Assembly: GCA_900696515.1 (NCBI GenBank)
Contig: CAADGK010000015.1
Location: 124,001-188,000 of the forward strand
DNA length: 64,000 bases
Source: an uncultured Nitrosospira sp.
GTDB taxonomy: Bacteria; Nitrospirota; Nitrospiria; Nitrospirales; Nitrospiraceae
Direction of reading: 5' to 3'
Shown: piece after piece, positions 6,031 through 49,870 of the stretch
Position numbering within the stretch: the stretch's first letter is position 1
Layout: each line of letters opens with the position of its first letter
Notes under the pieces: model-generated
Database searches by the model: none
Seen by the model: the letters and a program-made list of their open reading frames with translations, nothing else
Told to the model about the DNA's origin: nothing
Position numbers and translations under genes: made by a program

Positions 6031-6054
6031 GGGAACAGCGTGATAGCTGTTCCC
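6031..6054. terminator. Hairpin upstream of ydbL
   Basis: Perfect 9-bp stem GGGAACAGC / GCTGTTCCC with a 6-nt loop, ending 23 bp before the ydbL ATG. It may attenuate read-through or stabilise a processed ydbL message. It has no T tract. Confidence 0.4.
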
Positions 6055-6077
6055 TAAGCGACCAGGGGAGAAAAGAA

Positions 6078-40111: not shown

Positions 40112-42229
40112 TTACGGTTGGATCTCCCAGCCGAACATCATCGCATGGTCTTCATGGGCCAAGTTGTGGCAGTGCACCACGTACTTGCCGGTAAACGTTC
40201 GGAAGTTCCGGTAGAAGGTCACGGACTCACTGCCTTCCAGTGCGACGACGTCTTCCCGTGAACGGTCGTCCGGGTGAGCCGCATCCGGTACGGGCTTGTT
40301 CTTTCGAGAGACGATTTGGTGTTCCTCTTGGTGGATATGGATCGGATGGGTCCAGCCGCCGCCCGCGTTCTCAAAGGTCCAGAGCTCGGGTTGGCCTCGT
40401 TTGACAAAGGCTTCCATCCGATTGTGATCAAACGGTCTCCCGTTGATGGTCCACAGCAGTTCGCCGCCGACTCCCTGTTTATTGAACTTGAAGACCCGAC
40501 GGCGGAGTTTCGTGAGGTCTGGCAGTTCCGGCAACTGGCGCAGCGGCCGGTCCAGGGGCGGCATCACACTCGCATCCGGCGCATCCTCGTCGATGACGAA
40601 TTTCAGGACGGGGACACAGTAATTCGGATCAAAGCCCCCCGATCCCGGCGTGGTGCGTTTCCGTCCGTCGAGCATTTGAAGGGTATTCGCAAGGTAGAGT
40701 ACATCGCCAATGTCCGGTACGCTTCCGTCCATGTATCGGCTGAAGTCGATGATCACTTCGCGACGCTTGGCCGGCCAGACTTCGATGGAGTTGCGGTCGA
40801 TGGGGAAGGGGAGCAGCCCGCCGTCGGAGGCAATTTGCCTGAACCGCATGCACTGTTGTCCGAGCGTGTTCTTGCCGGTGCCGTCGATAAAATTGTATTG
40901 CCCCTGCTGACCAGGGCGGGCTCCGACCGTGCCTTGCATCAGTTTGAACTCATATTGCCGTGCGATCGAGGCATCCAGGAATCGGAAGCGATACTTTCTG
41001 CGTTTGACATGCAACACCGGATAGGCGACGCCGTTGACCGTGAAGACGTCCCCGACAAAGCCCTTGTCAGGGAAATGTTTGAAGAAGGTTTTTCCCCACC
41101 ATTCCGGGTGGGTTTCGTCACAGCCGACGTGGTAATCCCGATGGCGGGTGACGCCGTCGTCCAACCGGCAATCGTAAAAGGCCAGCGGAATGTCATACTG
41201 GACATCAAACGAGCCATCGCCGTTCTCCCTGCGAACACCAGGCAGACGAAGTCCCCTGGTTTCATCTCCGGGATCCAGGACCGGATCATAAATCGGATAG
41301 AGGCCGACCAGCCCCTTGTAAACATTGGCGCCGGTATGGTCCATCCGGTGGTCGTGGAACCAGTAGAAAGACTGTTTTTCGTTCGGATCGGCGTCACAGG
41401 CCCAGTTCAGATAGAGATTCTGCGCCCACTGCCCTGGTCCATAGGCACAGGGCTTGTGGAACGGGTTGCCGTCGCTCTCCGGCGCCGTATGTCCATTGTG
41501 GAGGTGGGTCAGGAACCCCCGATCCGGCGCGCCGAAGTTCTGGGAGTCGAGACCGTGATCGTCGCCCAGCAGATTCCGAAAGTGTACCAGACAAGGCTTG
41601 CCATATTCGGCGTTGATCATCGGGCCGGGGAACTGCCCGTTGAACCCCCAGATCGTGCTGGGCGGCAACTTCAACCGGCCGATGCTGCTTTGCCCTGGGG
41701 CTCGGACCACATTGCCCGTGGCGTTGATGGGAACGACATGTTCGGTGGTGAAGTCATGGGGAGCCACCTGCAAGTTGATTTCGTAATACCGGCAGTCCGC
41801 GATCGTGGCGTGATAGTTGGGCAAGGAGCTCCCGTCCTTGCGCTTGCCGTCTACCCCGACCTGATGTTCATCTATGCCATCGGAGTCTTGTTTAGTGCCG
41901 GCGTAGGGCGCCGCATATTGCGGCACGGGGCGTAAGGCGGTGGGAACCGGCAGCTCTTGCGAAAAGGCGTCAAAATCTCCGGCGAGCCGAGACACCACGT
42001 TCACCGTCCTGCCGAGCACCGTCGTTTGGACGATCCGTCCGCCGATCAGCGGACTGGTCGGAAACGTTTCCCTCGCCTTCCCGCATGAGGTCATCGCTGA
42101 ACTGTCGTAGCAGGATGCAGCTAAGGCGTCCCCGATGATTCCCTGGCTGATCATGGCCGCGCCTCCGGTCACGAGCCCTGCTTTCAGCATGTCTCTCCGG
42201 CTCACCTGTGTTAATTCGTCGTCACTCAT
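40112..42229 (-). CDS. Multicopper oxidase 2 (paralogue of oxidase 1)
   Basis: 705 aa from ATG 42229, preceded by AGAGGAG; the frame is open to 42379 but the extra 50 residues are unlike a signal. Tat motif SRRDMLKAG. Copper sites: THLHNGHTAPESDG, WFHDHRMDHTG, THPIHIHQEEH, and VVHCHNLAHEDHAMM. Clearly duplicated from a common ancestor with oxidase 1. Leader of about 300 nt from TTGCGC-17-TATAAG (-10 at 42533-42528). Confidence 0.92.
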   Translation of the reverse strand: MSDDELTQVSRRDMLKAGLVTGGAAMISQGIIGDALAASCYDSSAMTSCGKARETFPTSPLIGGRIVQTTVLGRTVNVVSRLAGDFDAFSQELPVPTALRPVPQYAAPYAGTKQDSDGIDEHQVGVDGKRKDGSSLPNYHATIADCRYYEINLQVAPHDFTTEHVVPINATGNVVRAPGQSSIGRLKLPPSTIWGFNGQFPGPMINAEYGKPCLVHFRNLLGDDHGLDSQNFGAPDRGFLTHLHNGHTAPESDGNPFHKPCAYGPGQWAQNLYLNWACDADPNEKQSFYWFHDHRMDHTGANVYKGLVGLYPIYDPVLDPGDETRGLRLPGVRRENGDGSFDVQYDIPLAFYDCRLDDGVTRHRDYHVGCDETHPEWWGKTFFKHFPDKGFVGDVFTVNGVAYPVLHVKRRKYRFRFLDASIARQYEFKLMQGTVGARPGQQGQYNFIDGTGKNTLGQQCMRFRQIASDGGLLPFPIDRNSIEVWPAKRREVIIDFSRYMDGSVPDIGDVLYLANTLQMLDGRKRTTPGSGGFDPNYCVPVLKFVIDEDAPDASVMPPLDRPLRQLPELPDLTKLRRRVFKFNKQGVGGELLWTINGRPFDHNRMEAFVKRGQPELWTFENAGGGWTHPIHIHQEEHQIVSRKNKPVPDAAHPDDRSREDVVALEGSESVTFYRNFRTFTGKYVVHCHNLAHEDHAMMFGWEIQP

Positions 42230-42655
42230 GATTGTTCGCGCTCCTCTTGTTATGACTGTCAATAGGTTCATAGGTACGCTGGTCCGAGAGCCTCCTACGC
42301 GCGTGCGTCTCTCGTCGGAATGTGTGATCCGGCGACACCTCCTTTCATCGTCGGGCGTTGGCGGCTTCGGTGATTGCACTCTGCGTATCGTGTGGATTCA
42401 TCCTGATTCTGTCGTCCGGTGTGTGACTCTCGTCGAGCCTATCGAGTCGTTCTCTTTCAGCGGATCATCGCCGGTTCAGTGGATAGAGGACTGTGAGAAC
42501 AGCCTTTGCGGTGTTCATCGGGATGACCTTATACTCTAAGTCGTAGCGGGGCGCAAGAGTTTTAATGGATGTATTTTAAATGGTTGTTAGGAAACGGTTA
42601 GCCACGTGCAGGGGAATCACATTCCCGACTTGAGGGATCGAGGTGAAGGGTGGGG

Positions 42656-42689
42656 TGAATCGTTTTCGATACGGTATCGATTTAGATAC
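42656..42689. promoter_or_regulatory. Tandem 17-bp dyads, copper-island site 1
   Basis: Two adjacent units, TGAATCGTTTTCGATAC and GGTATCGATTTAGATAC, each an imperfect inverted repeat (GWATC ... GATAC). The same 34-bp arrangement appears at 43607-43640 and 46703-46736. The site is about 430 bp upstream of the oxidase 2 start. Confidence 0.65.
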
Positions 42690-42870
42690 AGCGCTGTCTC
42701 TCTGGGGGAGATCATGCTCTTCTCAGGATGGTGATCTCGCCCCGGACGACTGATGAGACGACTCCCACTCCATCGAGAAACGCATGTGCTATCAGAGGAT
42801 TCCAGATGGAGAGAGGGTGACGAATGCTATCGATCCGTTGGCGACGACCTGTCCTCTATTGAAAATGGAC

Positions 42871-42888
42871 TGTCCAAGGATATGGACA
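42871..42888. promoter_or_regulatory. TGTCCA-N6-TGGACA dyad, second site
   Basis: TGTCCA-AGGATA-TGGACA, a perfect dyad with the same spacing as 39811-39828. Confidence 0.5.
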
Positions 42889-43006
42889 GGAGAGGGCTGG
42901 ATCCGAGTGGAGCCGGGTATCTCAGGCAGGATACATGGTTCCAGAAAGTCCGGATGATGATGGAGGTTCAACGAGCGGAGGCGGAACACCAGAGTGTGGC
43001 CGGTAG

Positions 43007-43495
43007 TTAGTCGACATCCTCCCGCTCGGTCCAGAAGGGGTCGAGCGTCACGGCAGTCGGTTCCTGCAGGGAGGGATCCTCTTCACCCGTGTCGGTGACA
43101 GCCGACTCGATCGGCGCCGCACCGGCCGTGGCCGTTCCTCCGTCCACCGGTTGATCTCCGGCGCGCGCCTCGGGAGTCATGCTCGGACCGGTGGGAACCG
43201 GAACAGGCACAGGTCTCGCTGATTCTCTTGCCATTTGAGCCGGCTGGTCTTGAGGGAGCCGATCGTCGAAGCTGAAGCGAAATCCGTCCGGACTCACACG
43301 ACGCTCCTGGTCCTGACCGGCCCACGGCAGAGCGGCGACTGCGCCGGGCGATGTGGTCGTGCGCCGGGGCGGAATCGGAGGCGGATGATCCGCAGGCGAC
43401 CGGTTCGGTCAACAGGGCGCACGCGGCAGCCACAAGGCCCAACTGCCGCCTCTCTGTACAGAATAGCTGATAGACCGGAGTTCCCCTTGTCATAA
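43007..43495 (-). pseudogene. Possible frameshifted secreted-protein gene
   Basis: One minus-strand frame (up to about 43495) encodes a lipoprotein-like signal, RRQLGLVAAACALLTEPVAC. Another, from 43410 to 43007, encodes a Pro/Thr-rich body (TTTSPGAVAALPWAG, then FSFDDRLPQDQP). Neither frame alone makes a sensible protein, but a shift around 43380-43410 would join them. The 96-residue part 43007-43297 has its own GTG. Low confidence; two short non-genes are also possible. Confidence 0.3.
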
Positions 43496-44063
43496 ATCAC
43501 GAATTCCACTGGTCCATCGGCATCGTGTGAAGCCCCACGGCTTGATCCATCCTCTGTGGCAGACCACTGCGGAGGACGGGCAGCCATGGCTTCCTGCGTA
43601 GGTGGGTGAATCCTTTTGGATTCTGCATGGTTTTGGATACAGTTCCTCCCCATTTCGCTCACCACTACCTGTTCGACGTGTATTTCTAGACCATATTTCT
43701 TACTCATTACAAATGAAGTAATAGAGAATTCTCTCGCTGCAGCAGAGAGTTACATGGCGTATGGGCTCTGTGACGGTCAGATTAGGTGGGGAGCGTGGTC
43801 AAAATTTTTGTACGGTTTGCATTGGTACATAAATTGCTTTTGCTCATGTCGGATCGAACCAGAGACTGCTCCCGCACCGCTGATGCCGGTTTGCGGCAAG
43901 GGGTGTGCGCTCGGGATTCGAGGTCGCCAGGGATCTCAATGACGACCGGAAAAACTTAATTTATTCTTAGAGCGCAAATATTGCCTTTCTCGCCTACCTT
44001 TGGTAGACGGACAGTGTGCTCTGATCAGTGCCGTATTCATACACATCTTGAGGAGGTTACGGA
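43496..44063. promoter_or_regulatory. Control region upstream of cupredoxin-propeller gene 1
   Basis: 568 bp. It holds the second tandem 17-bp dyad (43607-43640), an AT-rich stretch around 43800-43835 with a possible TTGTAC/CATAAA promoter, and a small TACCTTTGGTAG palindrome near 43996. The start has an AGGAGG ribosome-binding site. Confidence 0.4.
43607..43640. promoter_or_regulatory. Tandem 17-bp dyads, copper-island site 2
   Basis: TGAATCCTTTTGGATTC followed directly by TGCATGGTTTTGGATAC. The first is a perfect GAATC/GATTC dyad. About 420 bp upstream of cupredoxin-propeller gene 1. Confidence 0.65.
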
Positions 44064-45926
44064 ATGGGAAAGAAAGTACTGCTCGTTGTGCGAGCATGCA
44101 TAATCCTGGCAGTCACCGTCGTGATCGGGTCATTCGTCGACCCGGCACAGGCGAAGGATCCACGGGTCGAATTTGAATTGACCGATGAGCCGGGGGCATG
44201 GTTCCGGATCAAGGATAGCGGCGGGTCGCTGGCGGTCGCGACTCCAGGAACTGAAGTGCGGTTCAGCGGCAAGTCCAATACGGTCCATACCCGCACCAGC
44301 CTGATTTTCCCGACCGGTGCGGCGAACATGCCGTTTGATACGGAACCACGAAAGGGTTCGGACGAAGTGGTGCTTCGTACGCCCGGGCTGTACGTGTTTA
44401 CCTGCAAAATCCACCCGTATATGTTCGGGGCGGTGATCGTGGATGATCCGGCCACAGCGGGGCTTGATCTGGGTGAGAATATTTCACTGGTCAATGGCAT
44501 TCAGGTGCCGACGGCCAGTGATCTTGCCGTGCGCCTCTTGCGCACGTTCTTCATCGCGACGAACCCTGCCAATTGGAAAGATTACAGTGTGGGGGGAGAC
44601 TGGCACGTTTCCTATCCGGCAGTCACCGTACGAGTCACTGGAGGACTCACACTCACGATTGATGACGCGATGGCGGCCTTTGGCTTAGCAAACAATACTC
44701 CAAAGGAGGCTCTTTTCAATCCCGCAGGCACTGTTGGTGAGGTCTGGGTCGACACGCAGTTTGAGAAGACCAGCGGGAAGAGCAAGCCTGGAACGGCCAC
44801 AGCGGTCAACGGTAGTGATTGGACATTGCGTCGAAAAGTGGCCCTCCCAGGGATCAATATGAATAACCCCCACAATATGTGGACGGATCGAAACCAAAAT
44901 CTGATCTATCAGACGCAGTGGTTTGACAGTAAACTGACGGTCTTCAATCGATTGACTGGTGCCTTGTTGAATAACATCTCGGTTGGTGAATCTCCTTCTC
45001 ATGTGATGACCAGGGTGGATACCGATCAACTCCATGTGGCGTTGAACGGTTCGCCTGACAATGACTCGGTGGTTGAGCTTAGGCCACTGGCTGCCGGAAT
45101 TCAGCGACGCATCAATATCGGCCGTGGGAATCCGCATGCCCATTGGATGGGTCATGACGGGAAGTTGATGGTAACGCCTAATGCGTTCTCGGCAGACAGC
45201 ACGCAATACAACTTCGACGGTGATGTTGTAGAGGCTATTCTTCCGGCCGGGGCTCTTCCGATTGCGACCGGCATGACGCCTGATTCGAAATTCACCTATG
45301 TGGCGAGCCTGCTGAACAGCACCATCACGGTGATTGATACCCAGTCGAAGTCAGTCGTGACAACCATTAATCTACTGGAGAGATATGATCCACTGGGAGG
45401 TTGTCCTGGTTCAGCTTTCTATCAAGGACTTCCTGGAAAAGATTGTTCGTTTGTTGGTGCCTTGCCGATCCAGACTCCGGTCAGTCCAGATGGAAAGAAC
45501 ATGGTTACAGCCAATACACTCAGCGGCACGATCACGGTCGTGGATATTGCCACGAATACCGTTGTGAAAACGTTGCCCTGTGATCCCGGTTGCCATGGTG
45601 TGCAGTACGGCGCTAAGCAGGGTGGCGGTTACTATGCCTATGTTTCCAGCAAGTTTTCTAATGCCTTAATCGTTGTGGATCCCGATATTGATGGCGATGG
45701 GAATCCGAACGATGCGGATATTGTGGGGCGTATCTTGCTGGCGGGTACTGCTGCATCCGATGATACCGTCACAAGCCTTGCAGGCATGGGTGGGCAAGGG
45801 ATTCTCACTATCCCTGTGGTCTACAACGGGTGGGTGCAGAAGCTGCCTCAGAATTGGGCATGCCAACTATCGGGTGAGCAACTGAACCCGATCGGTGCGG
45901 CTGTCACTCCACCGGCCTGTCCCTAA
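44064..45926 (+). CDS. Cupredoxin-beta-propeller protein 1
   Basis: 620 aa with signal peptide (cleavage near AQA-KD, ~30). A cupredoxin domain (about 33-128) has His75, Cys114, His117 and Met120 (FTCKIHPYM), a complete type-1 copper set. A long domain (250-610) with YVTN/NHL-like blades follows, keeping His270 (NNPHNMW), His313 (PSHVMT), His324, His358/360 (PHAHWMG) and His511 (CDPGCHGV). These His recur in the paralogue at 47765. Nitrous oxide reductase has propeller then cupredoxin; here the order is reversed. Strong AGGAGG site. Function unknown; periplasmic electron transfer or copper binding is inferred. Confidence 0.82.
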   Translation: MGKKVLLVVRACIILAVTVVIGSFVDPAQAKDPRVEFELTDEPGAWFRIKDSGGSLAVATPGTEVRFSGKSNTVHTRTSLIFPTGAANMPFDTEPRKGSDEVVLRTPGLYVFTCKIHPYMFGAVIVDDPATAGLDLGENISLVNGIQVPTASDLAVRLLRTFFIATNPANWKDYSVGGDWHVSYPAVTVRVTGGLTLTIDDAMAAFGLANNTPKEALFNPAGTVGEVWVDTQFEKTSGKSKPGTATAVNGSDWTLRRKVALPGINMNNPHNMWTDRNQNLIYQTQWFDSKLTVFNRLTGALLNNISVGESPSHVMTRVDTDQLHVALNGSPDNDSVVELRPLAAGIQRRINIGRGNPHAHWMGHDGKLMVTPNAFSADSTQYNFDGDVVEAILPAGALPIATGMTPDSKFTYVASLLNSTITVIDTQSKSVVTTINLLERYDPLGGCPGSAFYQGLPGKDCSFVGALPIQTPVSPDGKNMVTANTLSGTITVVDIATNTVVKTLPCDPGCHGVQYGAKQGGGYYAYVSSKFSNALIVVDPDIDGDGNPNDADIVGRILLAGTAASDDTVTSLAGMGGQGILTIPVVYNGWVQKLPQNWACQLSGEQLNPIGAAVTPPACP

Positions 45927-45978
45927 GGTCGTGAGCAGTCTGTCGGCAGCGAGTCCTGCTGCCGGAGAGGACTGATTC

Positions 45979-46009
45979 AGTCCCGCCTGGGTGCAACCTA
46001 GGCGGGACT
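45979..46009 (+). terminator. Terminator hairpin after cupredoxin-propeller gene 1
   Basis: AGTCCCGCCT / AGGCGGGACT perfect 10-bp stem (45979-45988, 46000-46009), loop of 11 nt, followed by CTTCCTT. A smaller CGGCAG/CTGCCG stem precedes it. Confidence 0.65.
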
Positions 46010-46213
46010 CTTCCTTCAGCTCGCCAAGAAATGTCCCGAAGCATGGTTTGTTTGTTCTTCCTGCGCTCAATTCTTCTCTCGATCCTTCATTACCGCGTCA
46101 ATAGGTGTCCTCTTCTCGGCTGGTCATTGCCCGTGATGAGTTGTTGTGACTGATCGGTAGGGCATCTTGTCCCGTGAAGCGTATTTCGTTCCGGATCACG
46201 GCGCTTTACGCTT

Positions 46214-46258
46214 CACCGTTCAACAGGCTCACGGTCCTGAGCAAAGTCGAAGGGCGAG
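46214..46258. repeat. Palindromic intergenic repeat (GGCTCACGGTCCTGAGC type)
   Basis: Contains TTCAACAGGCTCA and TGAGCAAAGTCGAA, partly complementary arms around ACGGTCC. I recall very similar palindromes scattered between genes in several genomes. No second copy found here. Confidence 0.4.
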
Positions 46259-46380
46259 CAACGTTTCACGCTTTATGAACGACGTATCGTGAGGAGCTGG
46301 AGGTCCGAGGCTTGAAGCGTGAGCTGTCTGCCTCCAACCTCCTACTTCCCACTCCCAACTTCAGCCATCCGTTCCTCTAC

Positions 46381-46542
46381 GGTCTCACCGCGATCGGGGC
46401 GCGGCGTGCCCGGAATTTGGCCAGGATGGGCGCCAGGATTTCATGTGCGTCGGGAGAGGTGAGCGACTCTTGCAGCTTCAGCAGTTTCTCCTCCGTCATC
46501 GACTCTAGGCTCACCAAGGCTTCTCCCGCCCGATAGCGGACC
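46381..46542 (-). pseudogene. 3'-end copy of the HEAT-repeat gene
   Basis: 162 bp, about 8 mismatches to 50037-50198, same orientation, with a stop codon (TAG instead of TAA) at the matching place. Only the last ~53 codons are present. It lies 3.5 kb from the intact gene. Confidence 0.88.
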
Positions 46543-46702
46543 GATTACTAGTCAGCGCGGAGCAGCTTAGAAAGCTTGTTAAAGGCTGACATGTGATCCG
46601 CTCGTTATGAGTCCCAGATCAGTTCAGTGAGATCGGACAAGAACGTGAGCCAAAATTTTCTCGTCGAGAAAACACTCTCTTACCTACAGATGAAAGCGCT
46701 CG

Positions 46703-46736
46703 TGAATCTTTTTAGATACTGAATCTATTTAGATAC
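46703..46736. promoter_or_regulatory. Tandem 17-bp dyads, copper-island site 3
   Basis: TGAATCTTTTTAGATAC followed directly by TGAATCTATTTAGATAC. Only one base differs between the two units. It lies 380 bp before the lipoprotein gene leading cupredoxin-propeller 2. Confidence 0.65.
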
Positions 46737-46924: not shown

Positions 46925-47113
46925 TTTCTTGATGGAATGTTACTTGCGTTCAAATTCATGGAAGAGAAGTACGCAAGTGTACAGAGCCATAACGTAGTTG
47001 AACAATTAAGTTGTGTCAGTGTGTAAAAAAGCAACTGCCTCTCATCTTGATCCTCTCAGCACGTTGAACCTCTCAGTACCACGCAAGGTATCCTGTGGAG
47101 GGGGAAGTGTGTC

Positions 47114-47641
47114 GTGGTGACGAAGGAGTGTTCCCGCAGCATCGGGCAGGATCACAAATCGGCTATGCAAATCGATCGCTTCATTAAGAAAGTGTTTTTG
47201 ATGATTGTGGTTCTGTGCGGAGGTTGCGGTCCGTCCGTCCCCGATGGAGCAGTGAGCGGGTCGTCTCCATCGCCGATCAGCGCCGGTCAGGTCGAGCGAA
47301 CAGGCAATCCTCCTTCGTCGACGATCAGTCGTGTGACGACGTCTCCGAATAGGGTTGAAAACGAATCAAGTAGGGCGGCAGCTGCTGAACGGGCAGATGA
47401 TCGCTCTTCTCCGTCTCAGCCGTCTATTCCTCAGTCCATTGCGAAGGAGCTCAGTTCCCCGGATGCCCGAGACCGGTATCGAGCATTGGACCACTGGGAA
47501 GCCAGGAACAGCAAGATGCCGCTGGATCCAGTGTTTGAAGCGATGGAGGATGACGATCCAGCCGTGCGGGCCAAAGCCACGGCGATTGTGGAGCAATATT
47601 GGGCAAGGGAGCAGGAGCGGGAGAAAGGGCGGAACAACTAA
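47114..47641 (+). CDS. Hypothetical lipoprotein with HEAT-like C-terminus
   Basis: 175 aa from GTG 47114, with GGAGGGGG upstream; ATG 47165 is an alternative that shortens the n-region. Lipobox ends LCGGC near residue 38. A Ser/Pro-rich linker (about 42-105) leads to a helical segment (RDRYRALDHWEARNSKMPLD ... DDDPAVRAKATAIVEQYW) like a HEAT repeat. It precedes cupredoxin-propeller 2 and may anchor or assist it. Confidence 0.6.
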   Translation: MVTKECSRSIGQDHKSAMQIDRFIKKVFLMIVVLCGGCGPSVPDGAVSGSSPSPISAGQVERTGNPPSSTISRVTTSPNRVENESSRAAAAERADDRSSPSQPSIPQSIAKELSSPDARDRYRALDHWEARNSKMPLDPVFEAMEDDDPAVRAKATAIVEQYWAREQEREKGRNN

Positions 47642-47764
47642 GTAACGGGTCGGAGAAAGGAGCTTCGTATCTGGCTATTCTTGATTCAGTGCAGTGCGTG
47701 TTCGAGAAGTGTTACGGAGACTGGTTCAAAGTCGTGTGAAGTAGTTGTCAAACAAGGAGGCGTC

Positions 47765-49870
47765 ATGAAACTCAGTCGTGTATTACCCCTGGCGGCAGGA
47801 TTGCTGTTGGGAGCGAGTCAAGGTGTGTTTGCGGACGTGACCTTTACCGTCAGCGACACGCCGGGTCACTGGTTTGATGCAGGTGATGCGTGGGACCTTA
47901 AGGACAATGCCGGGAATAAACTTGGTGGCAGGTCGCTGGCTGTGATTGCTCCCGGCCAGGCCGTGCATTTCATACAGAACGATGCGCAAAAAGCTATGGA
48001 AAGCTATCACACCATTACCAATTTGGTGTGGCCAACGGCTGCGAATGGGCCGGTGGGGCCTATGGGTATCGAAGAGGCGGCGAATAAGAATGATCACCAC
48101 GTCACCCTTACTACGCCCGGTCTCTATGTCTGGGTATGCAAGCTTCATCCTTATATGCTCGGTGCGGTCATTGTGGACAATTCAGCCACCACGAGCACTG
48201 CCGCTTCAGATCCCACGAATGCATTTAACGGGGCTTCATTCGATCTGGGGGATCAGAATGGCGACCTGAGTCTCTTAGGGGCGGATGCGGTCGCTCTTCT
48301 CCAGGGCACACCGGGGAAAATCACGGTTAAAGACACGAGTGATGTTGCGGCTCGCCTCCTCCGTGCCTTCTTCATCGTGACGAACCCTGGAAACTGGAAG
48401 GATTATCGGAAGGCCAATTTGCCGTCTCCACAGAACATCTACCAGCCGGTTTATCCTAATGTGCCGGTCCATGCCAACGGCGGACCGGTATCAGTCGATT
48501 TGAAAACGTATCTCTTAGGGAAGGACTATGACGGCGGGGTGATCGAAGCACAGCACAAGCCAAGCCAGAACGGCATCGGCGAGGTTTGGGTGGATACAGC
48601 CTATGAATTGACGGGTGGAAAGCCGGAGCAGTTCCCTGGGACGATGACTGTGGTGTCGGCAACCAGCTGGGATGTCAAGCGGAAGATTGCGTTGCCCGAG
48701 CAGAAGATGAATAATGGCCACAACTTTTGGACCAGCCACGATCAAAACGAGATCTATCAAACCGAGTGGCATGGCAATAGCGTTTATGTGATCAATCGTC
48801 AAAACGGGAAGCTGATTCAGGAAATTGATCTCGTTAATGGACCGGAAGTCCAAGATCCCAAATTCAACGGTCAAACATGCCATGACCCGGCACACGCCAT
48901 GACGCGGGTGGACACGCAGCAACTGCATGTGGGGTGCAATGGTGACAATGCGGTCGTGGAGTTCGACCGAGATCCCACCACAGGCAGGCTGAGCATCAGT
49001 CGGTTTATTCCAATGTCTCAAGGAGGCTCACAGACGCAGCCTCATGCCCACTGGATGGGCTTTGATGGAAAGTCGATGATTACCCCTAACTCAAATACGG
49101 GGGACTCGACCCTATTTAGTTTCACCGCAGATACGATCTTGCGCAAAGAAACCACCGGAGGATTGCCCATCGCAACCGGCATGATGCCGGATTCGAGCAT
49201 CAACTATGTCTCTAACTACTTGGGAGACACGATTTCGGTCATGTGTGGTCAGTATCCACCCGTATCTGGGCCATATGCAGGTTGTGTTCCAGGAACGAAT
49301 CTCAAGAACATCAATTTGCTGAAGGGCTATAACCCAGGCGATGGTACCAACGGTGGTTTGATTCCCGGGGGAGTGGCGAAAGGACCCTACGGAGGGTTCT
49401 CGGTGCAAACTCCTGTCAGTCCTGATGGGAAGTTCGTGATTCAGGGTAATACGTTCAGCGGAACAATTACCATTATTAGAACTGCGAAGGACAATAACGA
49501 TTCATCTACGCGCGATGAAATCGTCAGGAGCATTCCCTGCGATCCCGGCTGCCATGGCGTGAACTTCGGCGCCAAGAAGGGCGGCGGGTACTATGCCTAT
49601 GTCACCAGCAAGTTTGCCAATCGGCTGATCGTGTTGGACTATGATCCGAACAACGACGGTAATGCGAACGATGCCGTCATTGCCGGTGCAGTGGTGTTGG
49701 CGAAAGACAATGTGCCGAAGGATGACCAGATTATCGGCAACAGGGGGATGGGTGCCCAGGGTGTCATGGCCGTACCCAATATCTATAACGGCTGGGTACA
49801 GCAGCTCCCCAATGGCTACAAGGCTCAGCTTACCAGGGAACAGCGAAATCCAATCGGGCCGCTTCCTTGA
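47765..49870 (+). CDS. Cupredoxin-beta-propeller protein 2
   Basis: 701 aa from ATG 47765, with AAGGAGG upstream; the frame extends back to 47681 without support. Signal peptide about 1-22. Cupredoxin ligands: His82, Cys125, His128, Met131 (WVCKLHPYM). The propeller keeps the same His as paralogue 1: His319 (NNGHNFW), His377 (PAHAMT), His388, His427/429 (PHAHWMG) and CDPGCHGV. Inserted loops make it about 80 residues longer. It may form a copper enzyme or electron carrier; the exact chemistry is unknown. Confidence 0.82.
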   Translation: MKLSRVLPLAAGLLLGASQGVFADVTFTVSDTPGHWFDAGDAWDLKDNAGNKLGGRSLAVIAPGQAVHFIQNDAQKAMESYHTITNLVWPTAANGPVGPMGIEEAANKNDHHVTLTTPGLYVWVCKLHPYMLGAVIVDNSATTSTAASDPTNAFNGASFDLGDQNGDLSLLGADAVALLQGTPGKITVKDTSDVAARLLRAFFIVTNPGNWKDYRKANLPSPQNIYQPVYPNVPVHANGGPVSVDLKTYLLGKDYDGGVIEAQHKPSQNGIGEVWVDTAYELTGGKPEQFPGTMTVVSATSWDVKRKIALPEQKMNNGHNFWTSHDQNEIYQTEWHGNSVYVINRQNGKLIQEIDLVNGPEVQDPKFNGQTCHDPAHAMTRVDTQQLHVGCNGDNAVVEFDRDPTTGRLSISRFIPMSQGGSQTQPHAHWMGFDGKSMITPNSNTGDSTLFSFTADTILRKETTGGLPIATGMMPDSSINYVSNYLGDTISVMCGQYPPVSGPYAGCVPGTNLKNINLLKGYNPGDGTNGGLIPGGVAKGPYGGFSVQTPVSPDGKFVIQGNTFSGTITIIRTAKDNNDSSTRDEIVRSIPCDPGCHGVNFGAKKGGGYYAYVTSKFANRLIVLDYDPNNDGNANDAVIAGAVVLAKDNVPKDDQIIGNRGMGAQGVMAVPNIYNGWVQQLPNGYKAQLTREQRNPIGPLP

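Follow-up and report, generated by a model that had tools for sequence, protein, structure and literature searches.

Sigma-54 activator systems and the dyad pairs of the window

The sigma-54 activator NtrC has sites of the form GCACC-N5-GGTGC. Two other described systems come close to the case reported here. Haft et al. 2006 (PMC1569441) described the PEP-CTERM motif, 17 nt long and sometimes repeated, which lies upstream of a sigma-54 promoter before genes of exported proteins, and PrsK/PrsR, a kinase and an NtrC-like regulator with the same phylogenetic profile. For the sigma-54 regulons of Desulfovibrio vulgaris (PMC4641369), the inverted repeat yGTCA-N6-TGACr was predicted for one activator, and the -24/-12 consensus was tGGcacg/tTGCt. 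Here we trace a tandem element in a stretch of 64,000 nucleotides (contig CAADGK010000015.1, positions 124,001 to 188,000, assembly GCA_900696515.1; the window) from an uncultured member of the Nitrospiraceae. It occurs at 42656-42689, 43607-43640 and 46703-46736, each time as two 16-bp dyads GWATC-N6-GATWC with a single base between them and a period of 17 bp. We consider it probable (about 0.78) that these 34-bp pairs are enhancers (upstream activating sequences) of an NtrC-type sigma-54 activator encoded elsewhere in the same genome (contig C11, 35331-36854) and restricted to a part of the genus Nitrospira.

Like NtrC-type enhancers, the sites are dyads in tandem, each about 16-17 bp long and with its arms spaced by one helical turn, and they lie 75-240 bp from a -24/-12 element. 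The candidate regulator likewise has receiver, AAA+ and Fis-type helix-turn-helix (HTH) domains, and RpoN is encoded in the window's genome (PF04552 at C5:29905-30387). Unlike NtrC sites, however, the dyads have GWATC-N6-GATWC arms and are stacked at exactly 17 bp, and the regulator scores below the NtrC cut-off of TIGR01818 (435.2 against 558.6 bits). With PrsK/PrsR, the Nitrospira sites, kinase and regulator have the same logic in common. The PEP-CTERM motif, in contrast, ends in TTTACA, has a mean spacer of 62.8 nt and is given for Proteobacteria only; the Nitrospira consensus and the array to promoter element distances of 75-239 bp do not fit this definition. As the regulator is also below the PrsR cut-off of TIGR02915 (393.6 against 502.6 bits), a PrsR/PEP-CTERM box was ruled out by both regulator score and motif. 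The D. vulgaris repeat is alike in being inverted with a 6-bp gap but has other arms and comes from another organism; neither GATAC nor GTATC occurs in the main text of PMC4641369. In the openly licensed literature searched, including the available parts of PMC1569441, PMC3162934, PMC4641369 and PMC13374858, we found no earlier account of the site or its regulon. The regulatory logic is already known from NtrC regulons and PrsK/PrsR, and this site and regulator would be a further case of it.

Distribution of the sites and their promoter elements

A pattern scan found all three tandem pairs where an earlier note, made from the sequence alone, had placed them, with six units in exact tandem starting at 42656/42673, 43607/43624 and 46703/46720. 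The consensus of that note, with up to 3 mismatches, matched the window 9 times against 1.23 expected (100 shuffles, maximum 5), and six of the nine matches are the units already described. The second unit of the pair at 43607 is degenerate (TGCATGGTTTTGGATAC, 2 mismatches to that consensus); the second unit of the pair at 42656 has 3 mismatches and yet is a perfect GTATC-N6-GATAC dyad. At the level of the genus, 94 oriented sites gave the consensus GWATCnwwwwnGATWC nGWATCnwwwwnGATWC, with near-invariant arm positions and an A/T-rich core. The TTTT core is typical of the window's three pairs, while other sites often have AATT or ATTT; the units are therefore near-palindromes, and the common orientation reported earlier has little meaning.

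The window's genome (4.585 Mb, 144 contigs) carries the tandem pattern at seven places without mismatch, at one with 1 mismatch and at three with 2, and the reversed pattern at none; for single dyads the chance expectation across this genome is about 17 by our estimate. The places are the three of the window (C15), C28:38827, C39:170763, C39:183707, C39:191456, C56:184784, C44:25311, C11:36957 and C55:4398. The last (2 mismatches, beside a transposase-like gene) was taken as chance; its identical sequence occurs once in genome G027. The genome scan which the earlier note had proposed thus gave about ten sites, and a conserved regulator gene does lie near one of them, the variant pair of C11.

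Sites with at most one mismatch are present in 33 of the 79 genomes of the genus Nitrospira (reversed control, 0 of 79). Among GTDB genomes the exact pattern was detected in 60 stretches, 49 from Nitrospira/Nitrospirota and 11 single cases in unrelated organisms. These 11 are not far from chance, for which about 4 are expected in 257 Gb (an estimate), and they were left out before the promoter elements were analyzed. From the named relatives among the other 49 we infer that the window's genome is itself a Nitrospira.

After merging of overlapping arrays (89 to 85), 5 of the 85 were located inside an open reading frame (ORF) of at least 200 aa, compared with 75% of the surrounding DNA. The sites are mostly intergenic and lie upstream of several genes, and the random scatter, including coding regions, that the earlier note had named as the mark of a dispersed repeat was not seen. 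A dispersed repeat or mobile-element end with no regulatory role would agree with the many arrays found close to contig ends, that is, beside repeated DNA. But the flanks differ between copies (79 unrelated groups), only the dyad arms being alike, and the sites co-occur with one regulator; together with the intergenic position this leaves such an explanation hardly any credence. In relatives, 10 of the 39 exact sites are at most 700 bp from a contig end, as is the C28 site in the window's genome, which suggests repeated DNA alongside, for example multi-copy TonB receptor genes. Arrays of three dyads at the 17-bp period were detected in five genomes (G061:C10:190002, G068:C207:14172, G060:C3:39280, G027:C365:582 and G006:C31:6151) and are consistent with stacked dimers.

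Many arrays have a -24/-12 element (GG-N10-GC) next to them, often TGGAATGAAACTGGCA or TGGAATGAAATTTGCT at 149-173 bp. Using a sigma-54 matrix set by hand from a consensus, we found elements of at least 9 bits within 60-264 bp on either side of 54 of the 85 arrays, whereas random windows drawn from these loci would give 11.5. The first enrichment test represented each homologous flank group by its best-scoring member, a choice that favours the claim; the repeat with one random member per group gave 28 of 76 against 5 expected, also with GC-matched controls. Two of the three window pairs, the second and the third, have such an element nearby. Since these elements lie 75-240 bp away, a plain operator of the MerR, XRE or C-protein type was dropped. 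The earlier idea of operators for one regulator holds in so far as the pairs behave as regulatory sites with one candidate regulator, indicated by co-occurrence and linkage; they look like distal sigma-54 enhancers and not like promoter-proximal operators.

The candidate regulator and its partners

The earlier note had also stated that the regulator is not encoded in the window. No sigma-54 activator motif was found in its six frames, which bears the note out. The candidate at C11:35331-36854 is an NtrC-family response regulator. Among 24 PF00158 matches in the window's genome, only this locus has the tandem site (matrix score 35.3, against -7.6 or less). Here the site, about 100 bp upstream of the gene, is a variant with one outer arm altered (GTCTAC). 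Ten of 24 regulator loci, including that of the window's genome, carry the variant pair GTCTACAAAAnGATTCnGTATCnAATTnGATTC immediately before the regulator, and alignment of seven loci showed it to be the best-conserved block of the upstream region. It is followed by a -24/-12-like element of at least 7 bits, at 92-94 bp in six of the ten loci and at 124-163 bp in the other four. In 23 of the 24 loci the regulator has a histidine kinase (at least 55% identity) as its neighbour; 17 of the loci include a TonB receptor from the same family, in one case as fragments only.

Regulator orthologs are clearly apart from paralogs (at least 72% against at most 61% identity in full-length matches). They were detected in 32 of the 79 genus genomes (E<=1e-220); across the family, with 175 genomes from 22 genera, these 32 were the only ones, all of them in this one genus. 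Sites and regulator occur together in 30 of the 79 genomes, sites only in 3, the regulator only in 2 and neither in 44 (phi 0.87, Fisher p 4e-16). In the same comparison, a control activator found in 31 of the 79 genomes gave 17/16/14/32 (phi 0.21, p 0.07). Because this control of equal frequency shows no such match, shared ancestry alone is not an easy cause of the agreement between sites and regulator; a second control activator, L090, was uninformative, being present in 72 of the 79. The sites, their distribution, their linkage to the regulator and the -24/-12 enrichment are established by computation.

For binding, phosphorylation, activation and signal we infer the following scheme. A regulator dimer would bind each 16-bp dyad through its Fis-type HTH, and two, sometimes three, dimers stacked every 17 bp would seed the AAA+ oligomer. 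The neighbouring sensor kinase of PAS/Cache type would phosphorylate the regulator and so bring about AAA+ oligomerisation; by DNA looping, the oligomer could then reach a -24/-12 promoter at a distance of some 75-240 bp and activate the sigma-54 RNA polymerase there. Structure prediction gave the kinase's sensor region a PAS/Cache fold (mean pLDDT 74), which matches WalK (4ywz, Z 13.3, rmsd 2.9, 141 aligned) and CitA (2j80, Z 11.0, rmsd 2.9, 118 aligned). Inspection of the sensor alignment by eye showed no conserved metal-ligand cluster and the predicted fold is of a generic PAS/Cache type, so copper sensing by the kinase is not supported by this model.

Several observations weigh against the enhancer reading. 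Pair 1 of the window has no convincing -24/-12 element on either side, 31 of the 85 arrays are without an element of 9 bits, and the propeller orthologs of four relatives lack one though the dyad pair is conserved. The site to promoter distances show little helical phasing (p 0.02), and a sharp peak at 10.5 bp is absent. Moreover, the regulator of the window's genome reads GAYIGA and not GAYTGA (L017, about 6045-6062, minus strand), a change of threonine to isoleucine in the sigma-54 contact loop that may compromise regulator function in this strain, unless the assembly is wrong at this point. Could the regulator bind the pairs but act at many targets as a repressor or sigma-70 regulator, as do TyrR/HupR-type proteins with a broken GAFTGA? 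The altered loop and the promoters without an element would fit. However, GAYTGA is kept in all 22 other orthologs examined and the enrichment of -24/-12 elements is strong at the usual enhancer distance, which makes this mode of action very unlikely.

Further points on the same side concern the match between sites and regulator. Phylogenetic non-independence was checked with one usable control gene only, and a tandem site is missing from the stretch covered in 7 of the 23 regulator loci fetched. Sites without a full-length regulator were found in G027, G034 and G055, and the regulator without tandem sites in G010 and G020. In G034 the regulator gene is split, the G020 genome is 67% complete, and G010, close to the end of a contig, has one dyad and then half of a second before a TonB receptor gene. 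For the exceptions G027 and G055, paralogs with 50-61% identity, which most genomes of the genus possess, could explain the sites, if another protein binds them. One candidate is the paralogous sigma-54 activator G000:C39:152014-153381 (L087), which lies on the contig carrying three sites and whose HTH (NQTKAAESLKLQRTYLARLLKHQKV) has a recognition helix very similar to that of the regulator (NQTKAAELLGLQRTYLTRLLRQRGV). But the sites occur in far fewer genus genomes than the paralog groups do, and the paralog's own locus has no site. LuxR-type response regulators, which adjoin many sites, would be another possibility: they make up 5 of 59 adjacent proteins, and several are divergent from TonB receptors. 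Against it, we know of no LuxR-type protein acting on sigma-54 promoters, and these proteins look like targets themselves, with -24/-12-like elements on their side (13.4 bits in L044, weaker in L054, L058 and L071). Binding by another protein is on balance unlikely.

Target genes and biological meaning

If the pairs are enhancers of the C11 regulator, then which genes do they serve? The system would control its own gene together with outer-membrane and exported proteins such as TonB receptors, multicopper oxidases and cupredoxin-propellers. The 59 adjacent proteins, taken from pattern-found loci and three weaker sites of the window's genome, included 10 TonB receptors, 8 cupredoxin-propellers, and 5 each of HEAT proteins, LuxR-type response regulators and multicopper oxidases. 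According to Pfam, the remaining ones were DUF928, SpaA-fold and RTX/DUF4347 proteins, histidine kinases, a PEP-CTERM protein (L053:6616-7179) and single cases. For the 85 arrays, 108 candidate targets (defined by a simple ORF rule with no gene caller) comprised 28 TonB receptors, the regulator itself 12 times, 11 LuxR-type proteins and 9 multicopper oxidases, the regulator and TonB counts being inflated by loci fetched around the regulator (L129-L151). The TonB receptor falls outside curated substrate families (best NCBIfam match 205.5 against a cut-off of 645 bits).

The control of a copper island, as first proposed, is correct in that multicopper oxidase and cupredoxin genes are among the targets. 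But because TonB receptors, response regulators and RTX/SpaA-fold proteins are targets too, along with adhesin-like and other exported proteins, the name copper operator is too narrow, and this is not a copper regulon as such. Nothing tested showed a copper signal.

In the window, pair 1 (42656-42689) consists of T, GAATCGTTTTCGATAC, G and GTATCGATTTAGATAC, and its target is uncertain. By position only, it may serve the multicopper oxidase on the minus strand (40112-42379, 755 aa as the longest ORF; PF07731, PF07732), 277 bp away; a Tat motif at residues 59-76 means that translation of the oxidase may begin further into the ORF, which would lengthen this distance. Pair 2 (43607-43640) is a candidate enhancer of a cupredoxin-like plus YNCE-like beta-propeller gene on the plus strand (44064-45926, 620 aa; PF21783, cupredoxin part judged by eye), 423 bp from the longest ORF. 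A candidate sigma-54 promoter, TGGTACATAAATTGCT (43823-43838, plus strand, 13.1 bits), lies 182 bp after the pair, and a pair of this type is also found upstream of related propeller genes in four relatives. Pair 3 (46703-46736), with both units near-perfect and conserved upstream of relatives' genes, is a candidate enhancer of a HEAT/propeller unit. The candidate promoter TGGAATGTTACTTGCG (46933-46948, plus strand, 11.2 bits) follows it after 196 bp, and the first gene, after 377 bp, codes a HEAT-repeat protein (47114-47641, plus strand, 175 aa). Next comes a second propeller-family protein (47681-49870, plus strand, 729 aa), related to 44064-45926 (one blastp cluster). The spacing of 380-430 bp given earlier for an oxidase or propeller unit thus agrees with pairs 2 and 3 but not with the longest oxidase ORF, and pair 3 first meets the HEAT-repeat ORF.

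The cupredoxin-propeller 44064-45926 has a weak NCBIfam likeness to 'clade III lactonase-type nitrous-oxide reductase' (49.7 bits, cut-off 700) and another to hydrazine synthase beta. Related short ORFs are located just upstream of the site in this propeller unit (43083-43493, minus strand, apparently split between two frames) and in a MauG-like unit (L016:6426-7028, minus strand). The sites at L054:6012, L058:7358 and L071:6042 each lie between divergent genes for a LuxR-type response regulator and a TonB receptor and may be part of a regulatory cascade. The DUF928 gene (L046:6614, L014:5707) has a site whose core is TTATTC and, at a distance of 129 bp, an identical AGGAATGAATTATGCT element. 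This arrangement is kept even in G055, a genome without the regulator, and a paralog of the regulator may serve the gene.

A wider interpretation is tentative, and we think it somewhat more doubtful than probable: a genus-restricted two-component sigma-54 system, with a site sequence unlike that of any described activator, might couple TonB-dependent uptake to exported copper oxidases and cupredoxin-propellers as a metal- or ligand-scavenging switch of nitrifiers, its signal being a small molecule or metal complex at the periplasmic Cache-like domain. Nitrospira are hard to cultivate and central to nitrification, and in our view their regulation is little mapped. With site, candidate regulator, kinase and promoter type named together, the whole regulon is open to test. 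Copper supply has been tied to the niche of comammox Nitrospira in a 2026 paper (PMC13374858). Competition for metals may depend on the targets named here, cell-surface proteins for uptake and copper proteins.

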